A stretch of 64,000 bases of DNA from a virus: positions 1-64,000 of IMG/VR virus record IMGVR_UViG_3300010885_078967. One strand, written 5' to 3'. Below, piece by piece: positions 25,599-57,864 of this stretch. The first letter of the stretch is position 1. Every line of letters starts with the position of its first letter. Under the pieces are notes generated by a model. The model made no database searches, was not told the origin of the DNA, and saw only the letters and a program-made list of their open reading frames with translations. The position numbers and the translations under genes were made by a program.

Positions 25599-25614
25599 AT
25601 TATATTTTATTTCC
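25599..25614 (-). promoter_or_regulatory. GGAAAT-N4-TATAAT promoter
   Basis: Minus strand GGAAAT (25609-25614), 4 bp, TATAAT (25599-25604), 6 bp before ATG 25592. No TTGA -35 box at 16 bp. Confidence 0.6.
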
Positions 25615-26225
25615 TAAACCAAAGATCTACTACCTTGAGCAAATTCAATAAATTTATAAAATTCATTTCTACTATTATCACCCGTCTCATGGAATGAACC
25701 AGACATACGAGCTGTACGCATAGTTGAATTTTGTTTAATACCTCTCAAAGAACAACAAGTATGATTTGCTTCAACCATAATTGCAACACCTTTATTATTA
25801 ATACATAAATCACTAATATATTTGTGAATACTCATCGTTAAATTTTCTTGTACAGAAGGTCTGCGTGAAAAATAATCAACAATACGATTTAGTTTAGATA
25901 AACCAATTACTTTACCATCTGGATCTGGTAGATAAGCTACGTGAGCATATCCAAAGAAAGGTAAGTTATGATGTGCACACATACTCACAACAGGTATATT
26001 AGTTTGACATACCATACCATCATATTGACCATCATTAGTAAATGCAGTAATTTTAGGTTCATCCATAAAGCAACCTGCTGCTAGATCGTTAACCCATGCT
26101 TTAGTAACTCGACGAGGTGTATCTTCCATATGCGGATGATTTTGCCAATCGAAGCCAAGTGCACTTAGAAATTGACCGTAAGCTTGCTCTGCTTGTTTAA
26201 TATCATATTTTTGACTCATATTCAC
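25614..26225 (-). CDS. folE: GTP cyclohydrolase I
   Basis: 203 residues, family-typical. Zinc ligands are visible in SMCAHHNLPFFGYAHVAYLP (C and HH) and HTCCSLRGIKQ (C). It opens GTP to dihydroneopterin triphosphate, the first step of both folate and 7-deazaguanine synthesis. The divergent neighbour is queD and queE follows, so the deazaguanine route is the likely use. Its own promoter (TTGAAT-N16-CATAAT) sits just upstream. Confidence 0.93.
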   Translation of the reverse strand: MNMSQKYDIKQAEQAYGQFLSALGFDWQNHPHMEDTPRRVTKAWVNDLAAGCFMDEPKITAFTNDGQYDGMVCQTNIPVVSMCAHHNLPFFGYAHVAYLPDPDGKVIGLSKLNRIVDYFSRRPSVQENLTMSIHKYISDLCINNKGVAIMVEANHTCCSLRGIKQNSTMRTARMSGSFHETGDNSRNEFYKFIEFAQGSRSLV

Positions 26226-26373: not shown

Positions 26374-27048
26374 ATGAGTAGCAGTATATATTCTTCAACA
26401 AAATTAATTAGTCTTGGTTCTTGTGCATTCCGTCAGTGGAGAGCAACACATAGTCATTGTTCAAAAATTCATGGTTATGAATTAAAAGCAAAGTTTAATT
26501 TCGCAGGTCCATTTTTAGATGGTCGTAATTGGATTATTGACTTTGGTGAACTTGATGAGATTAAAAATACATTAAATGGTATCTTTGATCATACTCTTTG
26601 TGTAGCAGCAGATGATCCTCATCTAGAAGATTTTAAAGCCCTTAATGAAAAAGGTATTGTTGATCTTCGTATTTTCGAAAGAGGTGTTGGTGCTGAAAGA
26701 GTTGCTGAAATTTGCTTCGAAGTTGCAACTAATTATTTAAAATCAAAATATGGTGAACTACGTTGGGTTGAAAAAGTTGAAGTATTTGAACATGATAGAA
26801 ACTCAGCAATTTATTCTAATCCTCGTTATGTAGATAATTCAATTTTTACACCAACTACAGAAGATGCTGAAGCTATTGTAAAAACATATCTTGAAAATGA
26901 AGCTAAAAAAGCACAGCAACATGTAGAACAACAGGTAGCTGAAGTAGAAAAAGAACAGGTAGCTACAGAAAGTAATGCAGCTCCAGTAGGTAAGCGAGCA
27001 ACTAGTGGTAATTACTCAGGATTATTTGCTGGAACGAGGTGGGGATGA
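26374..27048 (+). CDS. queD: 6-carboxytetrahydropterin synthase (QueD-like)
   Basis: 224 residues, longer than usual (120-150) because of an N-terminal extension and a Lys/Gln/Glu-rich tail after residue 180. THSHCSKIHGYELKAKF carries the catalytic Cys and two His; the usual HGH is HGY here, so one zinc ligand may come from the THSH part. FDHTL gives the Asp-His pair. It converts dihydroneopterin triphosphate to 6-carboxytetrahydropterin. The end overlaps the convergent phoH gene by 37 bp. Confidence 0.82.
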   Translation: MSSSIYSSTKLISLGSCAFRQWRATHSHCSKIHGYELKAKFNFAGPFLDGRNWIIDFGELDEIKNTLNGIFDHTLCVAADDPHLEDFKALNEKGIVDLRIFERGVGAERVAEICFEVATNYLKSKYGELRWVEKVEVFEHDRNSAIYSNPRYVDNSIFTPTTEDAEAIVKTYLENEAKKAQQHVEQQVAEVEKEQVATESNAAPVGKRATSGNYSGLFAGTRWG

Positions 27049-27854: not shown

Positions 27855-28613
27855 ATGGATTTAGAAAACGAAACTATATTTTTATCTGACGATAAATTGT
27901 TTTATACTTTAGAGGGAGAAGGTGAATACATTGGGCAGCCTTCTGTGTTTATGAGAATGTCGATGTGTAACTTAACTTGCAAAGGTTTTGCATCAGAAAG
28001 CTCACCTCATGGTTGTGATTCATATGTCTCATGGTCAGTAAAAAATAAAATGTCATTCAAAGATATTTGGGAAGAATTTTTTGTTAATCAAAATTTTGCA
28101 GATAGACTTAGGAATGGTGCAATTTTAAAATTAACTGGAGGTGAACCTCTTATTCAAGAAAAACAATTAATTAAATTTGTTGAGTACTTAGTAGAAAAAC
28201 TCGGTATGTGTCCACTTATTGATTTTGAAACTAATGCAACATTAATTCCAGATCCAATATGGAAAGATATATTTGATGCTACATTCACCACATCACCTAA
28301 ACTTAGACATAATGGTGATCCTGAAGATAAAACTTATAAGCCAGAAGTATTGAGATGGCATGCAGTTCATGGATCTGGATTTAAATTTGTTGTTTCTTCT
28401 GATAAAGATATTGAAGAAATTTGGAGTAAATATGTTAAAGATGATAAAGGTATTAATGTGTTAACATCACGAATTTGGTTTATGCCTTGTTGTGGTTCTC
28501 GGCAAGAACATATTGAGAAAGCCCCAGCAGTTGCAGAATATGCAAAAGCAATGAACGTTAATTTTAGTCCACGACTTCATTTGTTGGTTTGGGATCGTGC
28601 ACTAAAAGTTTAA
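27855..28613 (+). CDS. queE: 7-carboxy-7-deazaguanine synthase (QueE-like)
   Basis: 252 residues of a radical-SAM enzyme. LEGEGEYIGQPSVFMRMSMCNLTC gives the first two cysteines (CX3C); the third appears after an insertion of 11 (GCDSY), as in other phage-type QueE proteins. LTGGEPLIQ is the SAM-binding GGE motif. It makes the 7-deazaguanine ring from the QueD product. With folE and queD it completes the route to CDG; a QueC for preQ0 is not seen. Confidence 0.85.
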   Translation: MDLENETIFLSDDKLFYTLEGEGEYIGQPSVFMRMSMCNLTCKGFASESSPHGCDSYVSWSVKNKMSFKDIWEEFFVNQNFADRLRNGAILKLTGGEPLIQEKQLIKFVEYLVEKLGMCPLIDFETNATLIPDPIWKDIFDATFTTSPKLRHNGDPEDKTYKPEVLRWHAVHGSGFKFVVSSDKDIEEIWSKYVKDDKGINVLTSRIWFMPCCGSRQEHIEKAPAVAEYAKAMNVNFSPRLHLLVWDRALKV

Positions 28614-29636: not shown

Positions 29637-30374
29637 ATGCGTATCGCGTTTTCCGGAGCTCAAAACACAGGTAAGTCAACTTTAGTAAAAGACTTTTTAA
29701 CATGTTGGCCACAATATAAAACTTTAGATAAAGGTTATAGAGATGTAATTAAAGAGAATAAACTTACCCATTCTTCAAACACAACTCAAGAAACCCAACG
29801 TATAATCCGTGATTGGATGTATGGTGAGATCAAGAAAAATAAACAAGGTGATAAAATTGTTTATGATCGCTGTCTCTTAGATAATCTTGTATATACTCTT
29901 TGGGCATATAGACATCACCCTGGTTCTATTGAAGGTAAGTTTGTCGATGAAACTATTGATATGGTAAAAGAGTCGATGAGAAATATCGATATTATCTTTT
30001 ATATACCTGCTGATAAATGTGATTTTGGTATCGTTGATGATGAATTTAGAGATGTAAGTATCATCTATAGGGATCAAATTGATCAAATATTTAAAGATAT
30101 TATTGATCAATTTAAAACTAATTTTGATGCTGATGTATTTTGGCCTAAAAATGATTCACCTTGTGTTATTGATGTTTATGGTTCAAGAGAAAACAGACTT
30201 TTAACTATTGGAGATTACGTTAGTGAAAGCGGTGATCCTTACGGTGAAGAGCATAGTATCTTTAGTAGTGAACAGTTAGAGATTATGGAGCAATTACTCA
30301 AAGATCAAAAAGAGCAAAAAACTCACGATGATGAAATTATTAAGCTAACTGACGAGATTAAAAAAACAAAGTAA
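29637..30374 (+). CDS. NadR/AAA_28-like P-loop kinase
   Basis: 245 residues. SGAQNTGKST at residue 6 is Walker A in the form typical for NadR-type kinases and AAA_28 proteins. KIVYDRCLLDNLVYTLW (the DRxxxD element) and the C-terminal Asp/Lys-rich part follow. A second member of the family is encoded at 50961-51521. Substrate unknown: nicotinamide riboside or another nucleoside is possible. Confidence 0.7.
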   Translation: MRIAFSGAQNTGKSTLVKDFLTCWPQYKTLDKGYRDVIKENKLTHSSNTTQETQRIIRDWMYGEIKKNKQGDKIVYDRCLLDNLVYTLWAYRHHPGSIEGKFVDETIDMVKESMRNIDIIFYIPADKCDFGIVDDEFRDVSIIYRDQIDQIFKDIIDQFKTNFDADVFWPKNDSPCVIDVYGSRENRLLTIGDYVSESGDPYGEEHSIFSSEQLEIMEQLLKDQKEQKTHDDEIIKLTDEIKKTK

Positions 30375-49995: not shown

Positions 49996-50032
49996 AAAAA
50001 AGCCCGATGAATTAATTCATCGGGCTTTTTTT
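49996..50032. terminator. Bidirectional terminator
   Basis: Perfect 26-bp palindrome (50001-50026, GCCCGATGAATT arms) with A-run before and T-run after. It serves the plus gene ending at 49986 and the minus operon ending at 50047. Confidence 0.93.
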
Positions 50033-50046
50033 ATGTTCAGATGGAA

Positions 50047-50964
50047 TTACTGCTTTGGAGTCTTTGCATGTGCAAATTCCTCATTACTTAGCGTACAATG
50101 CAGCATACTTTCATGTGATACTCGTTCTGGATTAATATCAATACCACCACGACGTGCATATAGACATATTACACTCAGCTCATCTGGTTGCAAACAATCA
50201 GACAAACGTTTGTAAATAGTTTCACAAATTTCTTCATGAAAGTGACATTCATCGCGGAATGAAACAATATACTTTAGAAGTGATACTGGGTCAACATCCC
50301 ATTTACCTTTATACGTAATATAAACATCTCCCCAATCCGGTTGAGAAGTTACACGACAATTAGATTTAAGAAGAGCACTATGAAACTTCTTAGTAATACC
50401 AGTACTTGGTACCATCTCAATCAACTCAGGAGTTTCTTGATAAACATTAAACTCATCAGTCAATTGATGTTCATATTCACTTTCAATAGTAACGAACTGA
50501 TTATAATATTCATCCGACAAATTAACCGTTTCAAAAACAATTTCTTGATCTGAAAAGATCTTAACATTAACTTCTGTTTCTAAAAGGTTAGAAAGATCTT
50601 TACTAGCTAGAGCTTCTATCTTTTCCCTTACATCATCAGGTGTGACTGCAAGTTTAGTCATGTTGTATGAATTGAAGTACAACTTAAGGGATTTCGATTC
50701 AACAATATATTTACTATCACAAGAATATACAATTTTTGCAATACCGGTAACAGGTAACCCATTATAAGTTAATGCTGAGATTTCATAAGCATTACATGTA
50801 TCATAACCAACAAATGGAAGTTTGTCATCATCAATACCAAGATGCTTACGATTATTACTACGAGGTTCCCTTACAAGAAGAGAATTATCATATAATGATT
50901 TATATTGAGATGTCTTACCAAGGTGAACATCAATATTTGAGTTATCTAGTTTTTCTGTTTTCAT
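50047..50964 (-). CDS. queF: preQ0 reductase QueF
   Basis: 305 residues, the long (two-domain) QueF form. FVGYDTCNAYEISALTYNGLP and YIVESKSLKLYFNSYNMTKL belong to the N-domain; SNCRVTSQPDWGDVYITYKG, IVSFRDECHFHEEICE and YARRGGIDINPER carry the catalytic Cys, Glu and His. It reduces preQ0 to preQ1 with NADPH. Last gene of a four-gene minus operon with dpdA. Confidence 0.93.
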   Translation of the reverse strand: MKTEKLDNSNIDVHLGKTSQYKSLYDNSLLVREPRSNNRKHLGIDDDKLPFVGYDTCNAYEISALTYNGLPVTGIAKIVYSCDSKYIVESKSLKLYFNSYNMTKLAVTPDDVREKIEALASKDLSNLLETEVNVKIFSDQEIVFETVNLSDEYYNQFVTIESEYEHQLTDEFNVYQETPELIEMVPSTGITKKFHSALLKSNCRVTSQPDWGDVYITYKGKWDVDPVSLLKYIVSFRDECHFHEEICETIYKRLSDCLQPDELSVICLYARRGGIDINPERVSHESMLHCTLSNEEFAHAKTPKQ

Positions 50965-51521
50965 AAATTAATTCCTTTTTGCAGTAGTGTATTTTTAATA
51001 GTATGCATTCTTTCCTCTACTGTACCAGAAAGTTTTACTACGTTTTTTATTTTATATTCTTTGATTACCCATTCAAAAATTTCAATAATTTTATTTCTGA
51101 AGTTAACGTCAATACTACGTTCACCATCATCAACTAAAAGTACATCTTTTGGATCAGTATAAAAAATTACATCAACCTTATCTATTAACTCATTGAAAAT
51201 TTTAATAGAAAACGCTAACGTTAATTCATCTACTTGCTTTTTATCAAAATGCAAATACATCGTATAAACAAGACCATCTAGAATACATCTATCTAGAATT
51301 GTATCTTGCCTACTAGCTTTAAGCATATTTTTGATATGCTCTGCAGTAATAAGATTTTGCGTTGTGCTATCACCAGCTTCGTTAATTGCAACCCCGCATT
51401 CAGATCTAAGTTGACGCGTAATCTCTGGAAAATAAATAAATTTATCTCCAAATTCCTCCATGCAATTAGTAAGAAGGGTAGATTTACCTGTAGATTGAGC
51501 TCCTGTAAATGAAATAATCAT
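50961..51521 (-). CDS. NadR/AAA_28-like P-loop kinase
   Basis: 186 residues. FTGAQSTGKST is Walker A; TILDRCILDGLVYTMYL parallels the kinase at 29637. DPKDVLLVDDGERSIDVNFRNKI resembles the NadR ribosylnicotinamide kinase C-terminal half. It overlaps queF by 4 bp and the GNAT gene by 38 bp, so it is translationally tied to the deazaguanine operon. Substrate unknown. Confidence 0.72.
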   Translation of the reverse strand: MIISFTGAQSTGKSTLLTNCMEEFGDKFIYFPEITRQLRSECGVAINEAGDSTTQNLITAEHIKNMLKASRQDTILDRCILDGLVYTMYLHFDKKQVDELTLAFSIKIFNELIDKVDVIFYTDPKDVLLVDDGERSIDVNFRNKIIEIFEWVIKEYKIKNVVKLSGTVEERMHTIKNTLLQKGINL

Positions 51522-52065
51522 AATTAATTATATTATACTTTTCGTGCATATCAAGATAAAAATAATATGCAGATTCACTTAAAAATAATTGTTTGGGTGC
51601 AAGTGAATTGATGAAGTTATTATACTCTAATACTTGATGAATCATTGGAATAAAAACAAAATAATATTTATCATCACTAGTTTTTTCATTCATAATAAAT
51701 TTCATTGCTTTATATGCTTTATAAGCATCCTTATCAACAAATAATTTGAGATACCTACACCCCTTTTTATGATATGTAGAATATACTTCATTAAAGATTT
51801 TTCTAAAATATCCCTTTTGTCTAAATTCAGGTAACGTAAACACTCTTTGAATATAAAGAATTTCCTCACCATTAGAACACTCTTCAACATTTGCAAACAT
51901 CACACTTATGATTTGTTTCTGTTCAATGTATGCGAATGGTAATTGGTGCCAAAGATCTTTTCTATCCCATGTTGCAATACAGTCATCAACTAAATAGGTT
52001 TTAGTTTTACTATCAATTGACTCTGCAAGATTCAAACATTCCTTTTTTGTTAATTTAACAATCAT
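51484..52065 (-). CDS. GNAT-like acyltransferase
   Basis: 193 residues. YIQRVFTLPEFRQKGYFRKIFNEVYSTY has the GNAT motif A (V..L.VxPxxRxKGxG-like; here RQKGYF) that binds acyl-CoA, followed by KGCRYLKLFVDKDAYKAYKAMKF (motif B). The gene overlaps dpdA by 4 bp. An amino-group acceptor is expected; the aminomethyl group of preQ1 would fit. This is inference. Confidence 0.7.
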   Translation of the reverse strand: MIVKLTKKECLNLAESIDSKTKTYLVDDCIATWDRKDLWHQLPFAYIEQKQIISVMFANVEECSNGEEILYIQRVFTLPEFRQKGYFRKIFNEVYSTYHKKGCRYLKLFVDKDAYKAYKAMKFIMNEKTSDDKYYFVFIPMIHQVLEYNNFINSLAPKQLFLSESAYYFYLDMHEKYNIINYDYFIYRSSIYR

Positions 52066-52865
52066 AGAAAATTGATAGTTTTAAATTCATCAACATTAAA
52101 CAAAATATTTTTCTTATTAGTTTCAGTTACTTTATAGTCAATAAGATCACAAAGTTTGATGCTAAGTTTATCAACAAGACCAACACCTTTCATATATCTC
52201 ATATTATGTATACCTGCTACAACCGGATTGGAGGTATCAACAGATCGAATATTACTGAAGTTATAATCAAGTGTATAATGACCAAATTCATTCGGTAAAG
52301 AACAACCTAAAAGATGGTGAGGTTTTTTTCTATTCCAAATACCATACTTAACAAAGTCTTCTAATAGCTTAATGCGACCATTTCTCTGCTTTTCTAGCTT
52401 GTTTGACCCGAAACCTGTAATCTGATAATAAGAATAGTCAAAACTAATTGCAATGTAATCTGCATGTTTTGACATGAAGTCATAACAATCAGCAAGTTCA
52501 GTAAATGTCTTTCCTTGTACAACACCAATTCGTGGTATATGTTTAATCGGTTCATGATTATGTTCCTTATCCCACCTGATAAATGACTCAATAGTTCCTA
52601 TTGCATCTTCCAACACATCAGGTACAACATAATATGAAGGCTTTAAGTCAACAATATAATTGTAAAATTTACTGCTATCAAAAGCAACTCCTAGTTCGAA
52701 AATTGAATTATCAAGTAAAACTTCTCTACCAATTTGTAGACTTGTTTTAAAAAATTGATAATAGTCTGGATATTTTTCAAATAAGTGGACTAAAGCGTAA
52801 TCATAGTCGTTATAACCGTAAGATAACGGTAACATTGATATTGGTGATTCATGTGATATTAACAT
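52062..52865 (-). CDS. dpdA: DpdA-like DNA 7-deazaguanine transglycosylase
   Basis: About 267 residues of a TGT-like barrel. LLDNSIFELGVAFD, YVVPDVLEDAIGTIESF, RIGVVQGKTF, HHLLGCSLP and RSVDTSNPVVAG are in the order of the tRNA-guanine transglycosylase core; the VPDV and SVDTS aspartates are the likely catalytic pair. Phage DpdA proteins exchange guanine in DNA for deazaguanines. The start 52865 is chosen because the in-frame ATG at 52874 overlaps the -10 box. Confidence 0.78.
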   Translation of the reverse strand: MLISHESPISMLPLSYGYNDYDYALVHLFEKYPDYYQFFKTSLQIGREVLLDNSIFELGVAFDSSKFYNYIVDLKPSYYVVPDVLEDAIGTIESFIRWDKEHNHEPIKHIPRIGVVQGKTFTELADCYDFMSKHADYIAISFDYSYYQITGFGSNKLEKQRNGRIKLLEDFVKYGIWNRKKPHHLLGCSLPNEFGHYTLDYNFSNIRSVDTSNPVVAGIHNMRYMKGVGLVDKLSIKLCDLIDYKVTETNKKNILFNVDEFKTINFL

Positions 52866-52872
52866 ATATATC

Positions 52873-52900
52873 ATTATAGTTTTGATATAGATAATTTCAA
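52873..52900 (-). promoter_or_regulatory. Promoter of the dpdA-GNAT-kinase-queF operon
   Basis: Minus strand TTGAAA (52895-52900), 16 bp, TATAAT (52873-52878), 7 bp to ATG 52865. Confidence 0.75.
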
Positions 52901-56913: not shown

Positions 56914-57864
56914 TTAGATTAAAATCCACTCCACCATCCACATTTGCGAAAGATCTTTACAACCAGAATAGGATAAAGCACTTTGTAAATCTTGTTTAAT
57001 TTCTTGAAGCTTATCTTCAAATGTCATTCCATTTTGATTAAGCTGAAGAAGTTTACCTTCAATATTTTTTGAATGACCTTTATTATGTTCTGATGCTGAG
57101 CCAAAATAATGTTTTTGGCCATTGATAAGTGGTGCGGGTGAATCAATACATTCACTAAACAATTTACCACACATTACATAATCAGCTCCAGCTACTAATG
57201 CTTTAGTAATATCACCATTATGTTCAATACCACCATCTGCAATAATTGGTATATGTAAATCATTTTCCGTTCTATAAGTATCAATTTCACTTATACAACT
57301 AAACATTGGGTAAGTAAATCCTGTTTTGAGCTTTGTGGTGCATGCTGCTCCAGGTCCAACACCAACTTTAATAATATCTGCACCCCATAAAACTAAATCA
57401 TAATAAGCATGTTTGGTGCAAATGTTACCAGCAATGATTTTAACTTCTGGTAAGAGATCTCTTATAAATTTGATCATATCTTTCATCAATACACTATGAC
57501 CATGTGCAATATCGATAGTGATATAATCTACTCTAAGCTTAGAGCCAGCGATGTTGGTAAGTGCAATTTTATCTGACTCATTTACACCAACTGAAATAGA
57601 AATAAGATTCCAATTATATTTGTTACAATTTTCAACAAACTCATAATTATCCATATCAAATCGATGCATGATATAAAAGTAATCATGTTCAGATAGAAAA
57701 TGCGCTATCTTTGTATCGATAACGCATTTCATGTTAGCTGGTATTACTGGAAGATTAATTGAACGATCACTTAGATTAGTTGATACATCTAATTCAGATC
57801 TAGAAGTAGCAGTTGAAAATCTTGGTACTAGAGCGATGTCGTCATAATAGAGCTTTTTATCCAT
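56914..57864 (-). CDS. guaC: GMP reductase / IMP dehydrogenase-like enzyme
   Basis: 316 residues. YYDDIALVPRFSTATSRSELD, ADIIKVGVGPGAACTTKLKTGFTYP (catalytic Cys loop, GMP reductase-like) and IPIIADGGIEHNGDITKAL are hallmark motifs. YFGSASEHNKG fits GMP reductase better than IMP dehydrogenase, and no CBS domain is present. It would shift guanine to inosine nucleotides. Preceded by TTGATC-N16-CATAAT, 5 bp before the ATG. Confidence 0.8.
   Translation of the reverse strand: MDKKLYYDDIALVPRFSTATSRSELDVSTNLSDRSINLPVIPANMKCVIDTKIAHFLSEHDYFYIMHRFDMDNYEFVENCNKYNWNLISISVGVNESDKIALTNIAGSKLRVDYITIDIAHGHSVLMKDMIKFIRDLLPEVKIIAGNICTKHAYYDLVLWGADIIKVGVGPGAACTTKLKTGFTYPMFSCISEIDTYRTENDLHIPIIADGGIEHNGDITKALVAGADYVMCGKLFSECIDSPAPLINGQKHYFGSASEHNKGHSKNIEGKLLQLNQNGMTFEDKLQEIKQDLQSALSYSGCKDLSQMWMVEWILI

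Follow-up and report, generated by a model that had tools for sequence, protein, structure and literature searches.

Results

A four-gene operon beside the major capsid gene

The window analyzed here, a stretch of 64,000 nucleotides, covers all but a small part of a viral contig of 64,682 bases from an uncultivated T4-like phage, the major capsid protein of which shares at most about 34% identity with the best isolates among the matches listed. The interval that separates the major capsid gene from structural genes holds four open reading frames (ORFs), all on the minus strand, namely, dpdA (52062..52874, 270 amino acids [aa]), a GNAT gene (51484..52065, 193 aa), a kinase gene (50961..51521, 186 aa), and queF (50047..50964, 305 aa). 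ORF analysis of positions 50047-52874 thus recovered the four minus-strand genes of the initial annotation, with their overlaps of 4, 38, and 4 bp; the operon end given there, 52865, is the second in-frame ATG of dpdA, the longest ORF of which begins at 52874.

The order dpdA-GNAT-kinase-queF was kept on four further contigs (L003, L007, L086, and L145). The 38-bp overlap between the GNAT and kinase genes was seen in the window contig only, the corresponding overlap being 4 bp in L003, L007, and L086. Close to the end of the GNAT gene, one G present in L003 is missing from the window (ATTGAATTATGA in the window versus ATTAATTATGA in L003), so that the usual stop codon is lost, the GNAT extends into the kinase gene by about 12 residues, and the 38-bp overlap arises. 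This one-base difference, within window positions 51500-51540 and in an A/T-rich run, could be genuine or could reflect a sequencing error.

The single promoter initially proposed for the four genes was not established by the analysis. The best sigma70-like match (52900-52873, minus strand, TTGAAA-16-TATAAT, 11/12 matches), a weak candidate, overlaps the start codon, and the 28 sigma70-like sites counted in the operon region showed no enrichment over the 22.9 ± 4.8 found in shuffled sequences. Late T4-type promoters (TATAAATA) were not enriched, and none was found close to the operon. On the 3' side of queF, a strong intrinsic terminator (49996..50031, minus strand), which closes the operon, forms a hairpin of 16 pairs (-23 kcal/mol, z -9.1), which, being symmetric, may act on both strands.

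Genes predicted to make and insert a 7-deazaguanine base

The product of 52062..52874 is predicted to be a DpdA-type DNA guanine transglycosylase of the Campylobacter CP220/Flavobacterium immuto type. Its identity was 46 to 47% to CP220-type proteins and 49% to the immuto protein annotated as a DNA guanine transglycosylase. Searched against Pfam and the PDB, the DpdA sequence gave no match, and its link to tRNA-guanine transglycosylases (TGTs) by sequence only was weak; comparison of folds decided in favor of a TGT. The AF2 model reached a pLDDT of 93, and its top Foldseek matches in the PDB were all tRNA-guanine transglycosylases (E 4.6e-9, probability 1.00), upholding the earlier assignment. 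The protein carries the TGT-like motifs LDNSxFE (D55), VPD (D86), VVQG (Q120), and SxDTSNP (D213), whose aspartate and glutamine residues, matched by eye to the TGT active site, were unchanged across 23 relatives. The DpdA3 subfamily reportedly clusters with CP220-type DpdA and replaces guanine fully; with CP220-type DpdA, the window protein shares the 46 to 47% identity given above.

The product of 50047..50964 is, by its sequence, QueF, a bimodular NADPH-dependent preQ0 nitrile reductase, and not a QueF-L amidinotransferase. The protein annotated initially is present and proved to be complete, with both modules (Pfam QueF_N, 107 bits, and QueF, 79 bits), the QueF motif ESKSLKLY, and the catalytic residues C203 and D210, which were conserved among relatives. 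It aligned along its length to the Vibrio QueF structure 3bp1 (E 9.5e-45) and scored 254.9 bits against the NCBIfam QueF model, under the cut-off of 293.

Genes for earlier steps were located elsewhere in the window. FolE, the GTP cyclohydrolase I that takes the first step to preQ0, is encoded at 25614..26225 on the minus strand (PF01227, 167.6 bits). On the plus strand lie genes for a QueD-like 6-carboxytetrahydropterin synthase (26374..27048; PTPS, 53 bits; 41% identity to immuto QueD over 152 aa) and for a QueE-like radical SAM 7-carboxy-7-deazaguanine synthase (27855..28613). For the latter, five of the six NCBIfam matches were QueE models, the best at 47 bits and every one under its cut-off, and the BLAST match to immuto QueE was weak (E 2e-9). 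QueC is missing from the window fragment and was found on the 184.5-kb relative contig that carries the nearest operon. With FolE, QueD, QueE, and QueF in the window, the phage thus appears able to make its own preQ1, QueC aside.

Two further genes are of note. A GMP reductase-like gene at 56914..57864 (minus strand; 319.5 bits against GMP reductase, its best NCBIfam model, for which the cut-off is 344) may be tied to guanine handling or guanine nucleotide processing; its family occurred on those GNAT contigs whose length allowed it to be seen and was absent from the formyltransferase contigs tested, and the modification operon of L151 includes a member of this Pfam family. Near the FolE-QueD-QueE genes, 29637-30374 (plus strand) encodes a second P-loop protein of the AAA_28/"thymidylate kinase"-like type (245 aa).

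A predicted kinase that accompanies DpdA and QueF

The product of 50961..51521 is predicted to be a P-loop kinase (AAA_28/NadR-like) and a dedicated partner of DpdA and QueF, scoring 55.9 bits against Pfam AAA_28 and 7.7e-30 against phrog_2107, "thymidylate kinase." Its gene adjoins dpdA in CP220-type phages and is also part of the immuto operon. Among the 77 viral loci sampled through the kinase, 76 had queF, and 71 had dpdA and the kinase gene within about 4 kb. The initial annotation suggested that the kinase may add or activate a group. A part for it in acylation was rejected, since the kinase also occurs in operons with nothing between dpdA and the kinase gene and beside the DpdA of CP220. 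As it stands next to DpdA where QueF is lacking (CP220) and is otherwise a constant partner of both, the kinase would serve insertion or supply and not acylation. A kinase with an unassigned purpose is thereby singled out as a companion of this DpdA/QueF system.

A phage GNAT confined to one place in the operon

The product of 51484..52065 is a GNAT N-acyltransferase by family, which we propose as a candidate preQ1/dPreQ1 acyltransferase. By sequence, the assignment is weak, with a Pfam Acetyltransf_1 score of 24.1 bits, above the cut-off. The family profile matched the PDB acetyltransferases 3dsb and PaiA (1tiq), and Foldseek matched N-acetyltransferases with bound acetyl-CoA (probability 1.00), the predicted model itself being only moderate (pLDDT 71). 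The CoA-binding loop of GNATs reads RxxGxG/A, Gly or Ala being usual at the last position. In the acyl-CoA motif noted initially, the last position is a noncanonical Phe (RxxGxF); this loop, R82xxG85xF87R88, was unchanged in the five family members. An unusual N-terminal segment is conserved, with D28, W33, D34, K36, and W39 invariant, while the C-terminal part is variable.

The GNAT gene is under purifying selection (dN/dS of about 0.16 versus L003). Taken together with the Pfam scores of QueF and the order kept on four contigs, this ratio indicates that the operon is more than chance.

This GNAT family has five convincing members, namely, the window protein and four others found among 2.9 million viral contigs, and all of them are encoded between dpdA and the kinase gene, a place that we call the slot; a wandering accessory gene was thereby ruled out. 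One further match, on L179, covers residues 25-90 only and lies elsewhere, beside unrelated genes. No relative of this GNAT was found in a genome scan, which speaks against a bacterial origin, and none was found in isolated phages. GNATs acetylate proteins, tRNA, and small molecules too and can use many donors.

GNAT and formyltransferase as alternatives in the slot

DpdA and QueF alignments served as queries against the 2.9 million viral contigs, and labeling of the hits by ORF and HMM analysis then yielded 91 nonredundant operons with dpdA, kinase gene, and queF (dpdA...kinase-queF). The slot was empty in 44, held a PurN-like formyltransferase in 42, and held a GNAT in 5 (the window, L003, L007, L086, and L145), counts that are descriptive, as the survey favors the best matches per query and the rows are related. 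No operon (0/91) had both enzymes. Asn, His, and Asp were kept in all 42 slot formyltransferases. Whole-contig searches, run with a positive control, found no PurN-like formyltransferase in the window record or on the other four GNAT contigs, and a whole-contig search found no GNAT of the window family on the formyltransferase contigs tested.

Additional genes were present in 27 of the 42 formyltransferase operons. A dATP/dGTP diphosphohydrolase-like gene (PF18909) lies between the formyltransferase and kinase genes in L122 (3436-3840), L127 (1989-2342), and L150 (6052-6417), hinting at control of the dGTP pool in several sister operons. A LOG-family gene (Lysine_decarbox, PF03641) is inserted in L127 (1125-1817); LOG-family enzymes can split nucleotides to bases. 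A small phrog_1485 gene occupies the interval between the formyltransferase and kinase genes in several operons, among them L072 (8315-8689) and L151 (5899-6246).

In the QueF tree, four GNAT operons were sister to six formyltransferase operons within a well-supported set of 10, and L145, the fifth GNAT operon, paired with a formyltransferase operon. The GNAT rows stayed together in the DpdA and kinase trees; the set that contained them in the DpdA tree was made up of five GNAT and five formyltransferase rows. A single GNAT clade was rejected by the QueF tree (p-AU 0.003) yet allowed by the DpdA and kinase trees, so that either the cassette moved or the swap occurred twice; on both views, GNAT and formyltransferase are alternatives at a single place. 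The simplest reading is that of an enzyme replacement, in which the GNAT acylates, and probably acetylates, the preQ1 amine where related operons formylate it.

Discussion

N-acylation of preQ1 as the favored reading

We consider it likely that the operon makes N-acylated 7-aminomethyl-7-deazaguanine and installs it in phage DNA. QueF gives a primary amine, the enzyme in the sister slot is a formyltransferase, and the GNAT is an N-acyltransferase, so that we favor N-acylation, whether of preQ1 or of dPreQ1, as the most economical and probably the right reading. Counting against it are the range of other GNAT substrates, the Phe that ends the CoA-loop motif, the moderate GNAT model, the small size of the family, and the C terminus of the window GNAT, altered by the one-base difference. 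That the GNAT acylates the preQ1 amine had been the core idea of the initial annotation, and it emerges strengthened by the formyltransferase in the same slot of immuto and 41 other operons, since formylation is itself acylation of an amine.

As to donor, product, timing, and benefit, we infer the following route. PreQ0 would be made from GTP by phage FolE, QueD, and QueE together with QueC, the last encoded on the relative contig, and would be reduced to preQ1 by QueF. DpdA would swap guanine for the 7-deazaguanine base in DNA, and the GNAT, standing in for the PurN-like formyltransferase of the sister operons, would acylate the aminomethyl group, most likely with acetyl taken from acetyl-CoA, while the base is still free or once it is inserted. 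The kinase would be a core helper of this DpdA type, outside acylation, and the acylated base would protect the DNA against host nucleases.

It is possible, though rather unlikely, that DpdA, the kinase, and QueF install plain dPreQ1 and that the GNAT acts elsewhere, on a host protein, a tRNA, or a defense factor, or regulates an enzyme of the operon. GNAT substrates are difficult to predict, and with the slot empty in 44 of the 91 operons an unacylated product is evidently viable. Published work points the same way, describing dPreQ1 as the product of QueF and DpdA in characterized phages (PMC6884629) and reporting a 295-Da product (PMC12028318). Plain dPreQ1 would, however, leave unexplained both the confinement of the GNAT to the formyltransferase slot, never alongside that enzyme, in five of five contigs and the nesting of the GNAT operons among formyltransferase operons.

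Even with N-acylation by the GNAT, the group need not be acetyl. If the GNAT took its group (e.g., succinyl, glycyl, or fatty acyl) from a different acyl-CoA or from an acyl carrier, the base would be larger or charged, in keeping with the unusual conserved N-terminal segment and variable C-terminal part of the protein and with the many donors generally usable by GNATs. We regard this as improbable, since the nearest solved structures by both profile and fold are acetyltransferases and nothing points to any specific alternative donor. We give similarly little credence to a non-formyl N-acyl (probably acetyl) dPreQ1 formed by a phage-only GNAT family that took over from the formyltransferase in a modular operon, together with a dedicated nucleotide-level kinase, with guanine replaced before or during replication. 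A pre-replicative route, with exchange and acylation on nucleotides and the kinase phosphorylating the modified dNMP for insertion by the polymerase, is the least credible. In its favor, the kinase cannot be separated from DpdA and QueF, dGTP diphosphohydrolase-like, LOG-family, or GMP reductase genes are inserted in some sister operons, and a gene lies just upstream of dpdA both in immuto (NTP pyrophosphohydrolase-like) and in CP220 (HD/P-loop). Against it, the TGT fold works on polymers in known cases, published work regards insertion as post-replicative (PMC12707154), and neither the window record nor the 184.5-kb relative showed a dGTP_diPhyd_N or a PRA-PH domain.

Under the favored reading, N-acylation by the slot GNAT, this position of the operon seems to be an exchangeable tailoring slot acting on the preQ1 amine, either empty or adding a formyl group or, by GNAT, an acyl group. 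With such a slot, the product can be predicted from gene content, and a single mass measurement can test the prediction. Decoration of their DNA lets phages evade restriction, and every further decoration reveals chemistry that polymerases and repair enzymes tolerate.

Comparison with known systems

Formyl-dPreQ1 has reportedly been found in phage DNA, with DpdN as its predicted formyltransferase. The preQ1 amine would be acylated there as proposed for the window, but with a formyl group and by a PurN-like enzyme unrelated to GNAT. The window is not a member of the DpdN branch, a PurN-like formyltransferase with Asn-His-Asp being absent from its record. An acyl-dPreQ1 would accordingly be a variant of the known formyl-dPreQ1 kind, and the novelty claimed initially narrows to the form that is probably acetylated. 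The limited literature covered did not mention a GNAT in any phage cluster for 7-deazaguanine.

Presence of dPreQ1 in phage DNA is established for Streptococcus phage Dp-1, Halovirus HVTV-1, and vibrio phage 6E351A (PMC6884629 and PMC12028318). In these phages QueF yields dPreQ1 in DNA, as proposed for the window; a slot acyltransferase or a dedicated kinase, both of which are predicted in the window, is not described in the passages covered. Campylobacter phage CP220/CPt10 resembles the window in its DpdA and in the kinase gene directly 3' of dpdA but, unlike the window, has neither QueF nor a tailoring gene at that place, and phages of this type are reported with a different 7-deazaguanine, dADG (report cited in PMC6884629).

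A GNAT paired with a TGT paralogue, sometimes fused to it, has been proposed independently as a DNA modifier in bacterial BRC (BREX-related capture) loci (PMC12839542). The likeness to the window lies in this pairing; BRC loci are bacterial defense loci with PglZ and HerA, and, unlike in the window, neither QueF nor a kinase is named in the passages covered.

The isolate Flavobacterium phage vB_FspM_immuto shares the order dpdA-transferase-kinase-queF with the window and likewise has FolE, QueD, and QueE nearby, with identities of 49% for DpdA, 31% for the kinase, and 45% for QueF. It differs in a short extra ORF (about 50 to 60 aa) between dpdA and the transferase gene and in the transferase itself, which is PurN-like (10-formyl-THF type) in immuto and a GNAT in the window.
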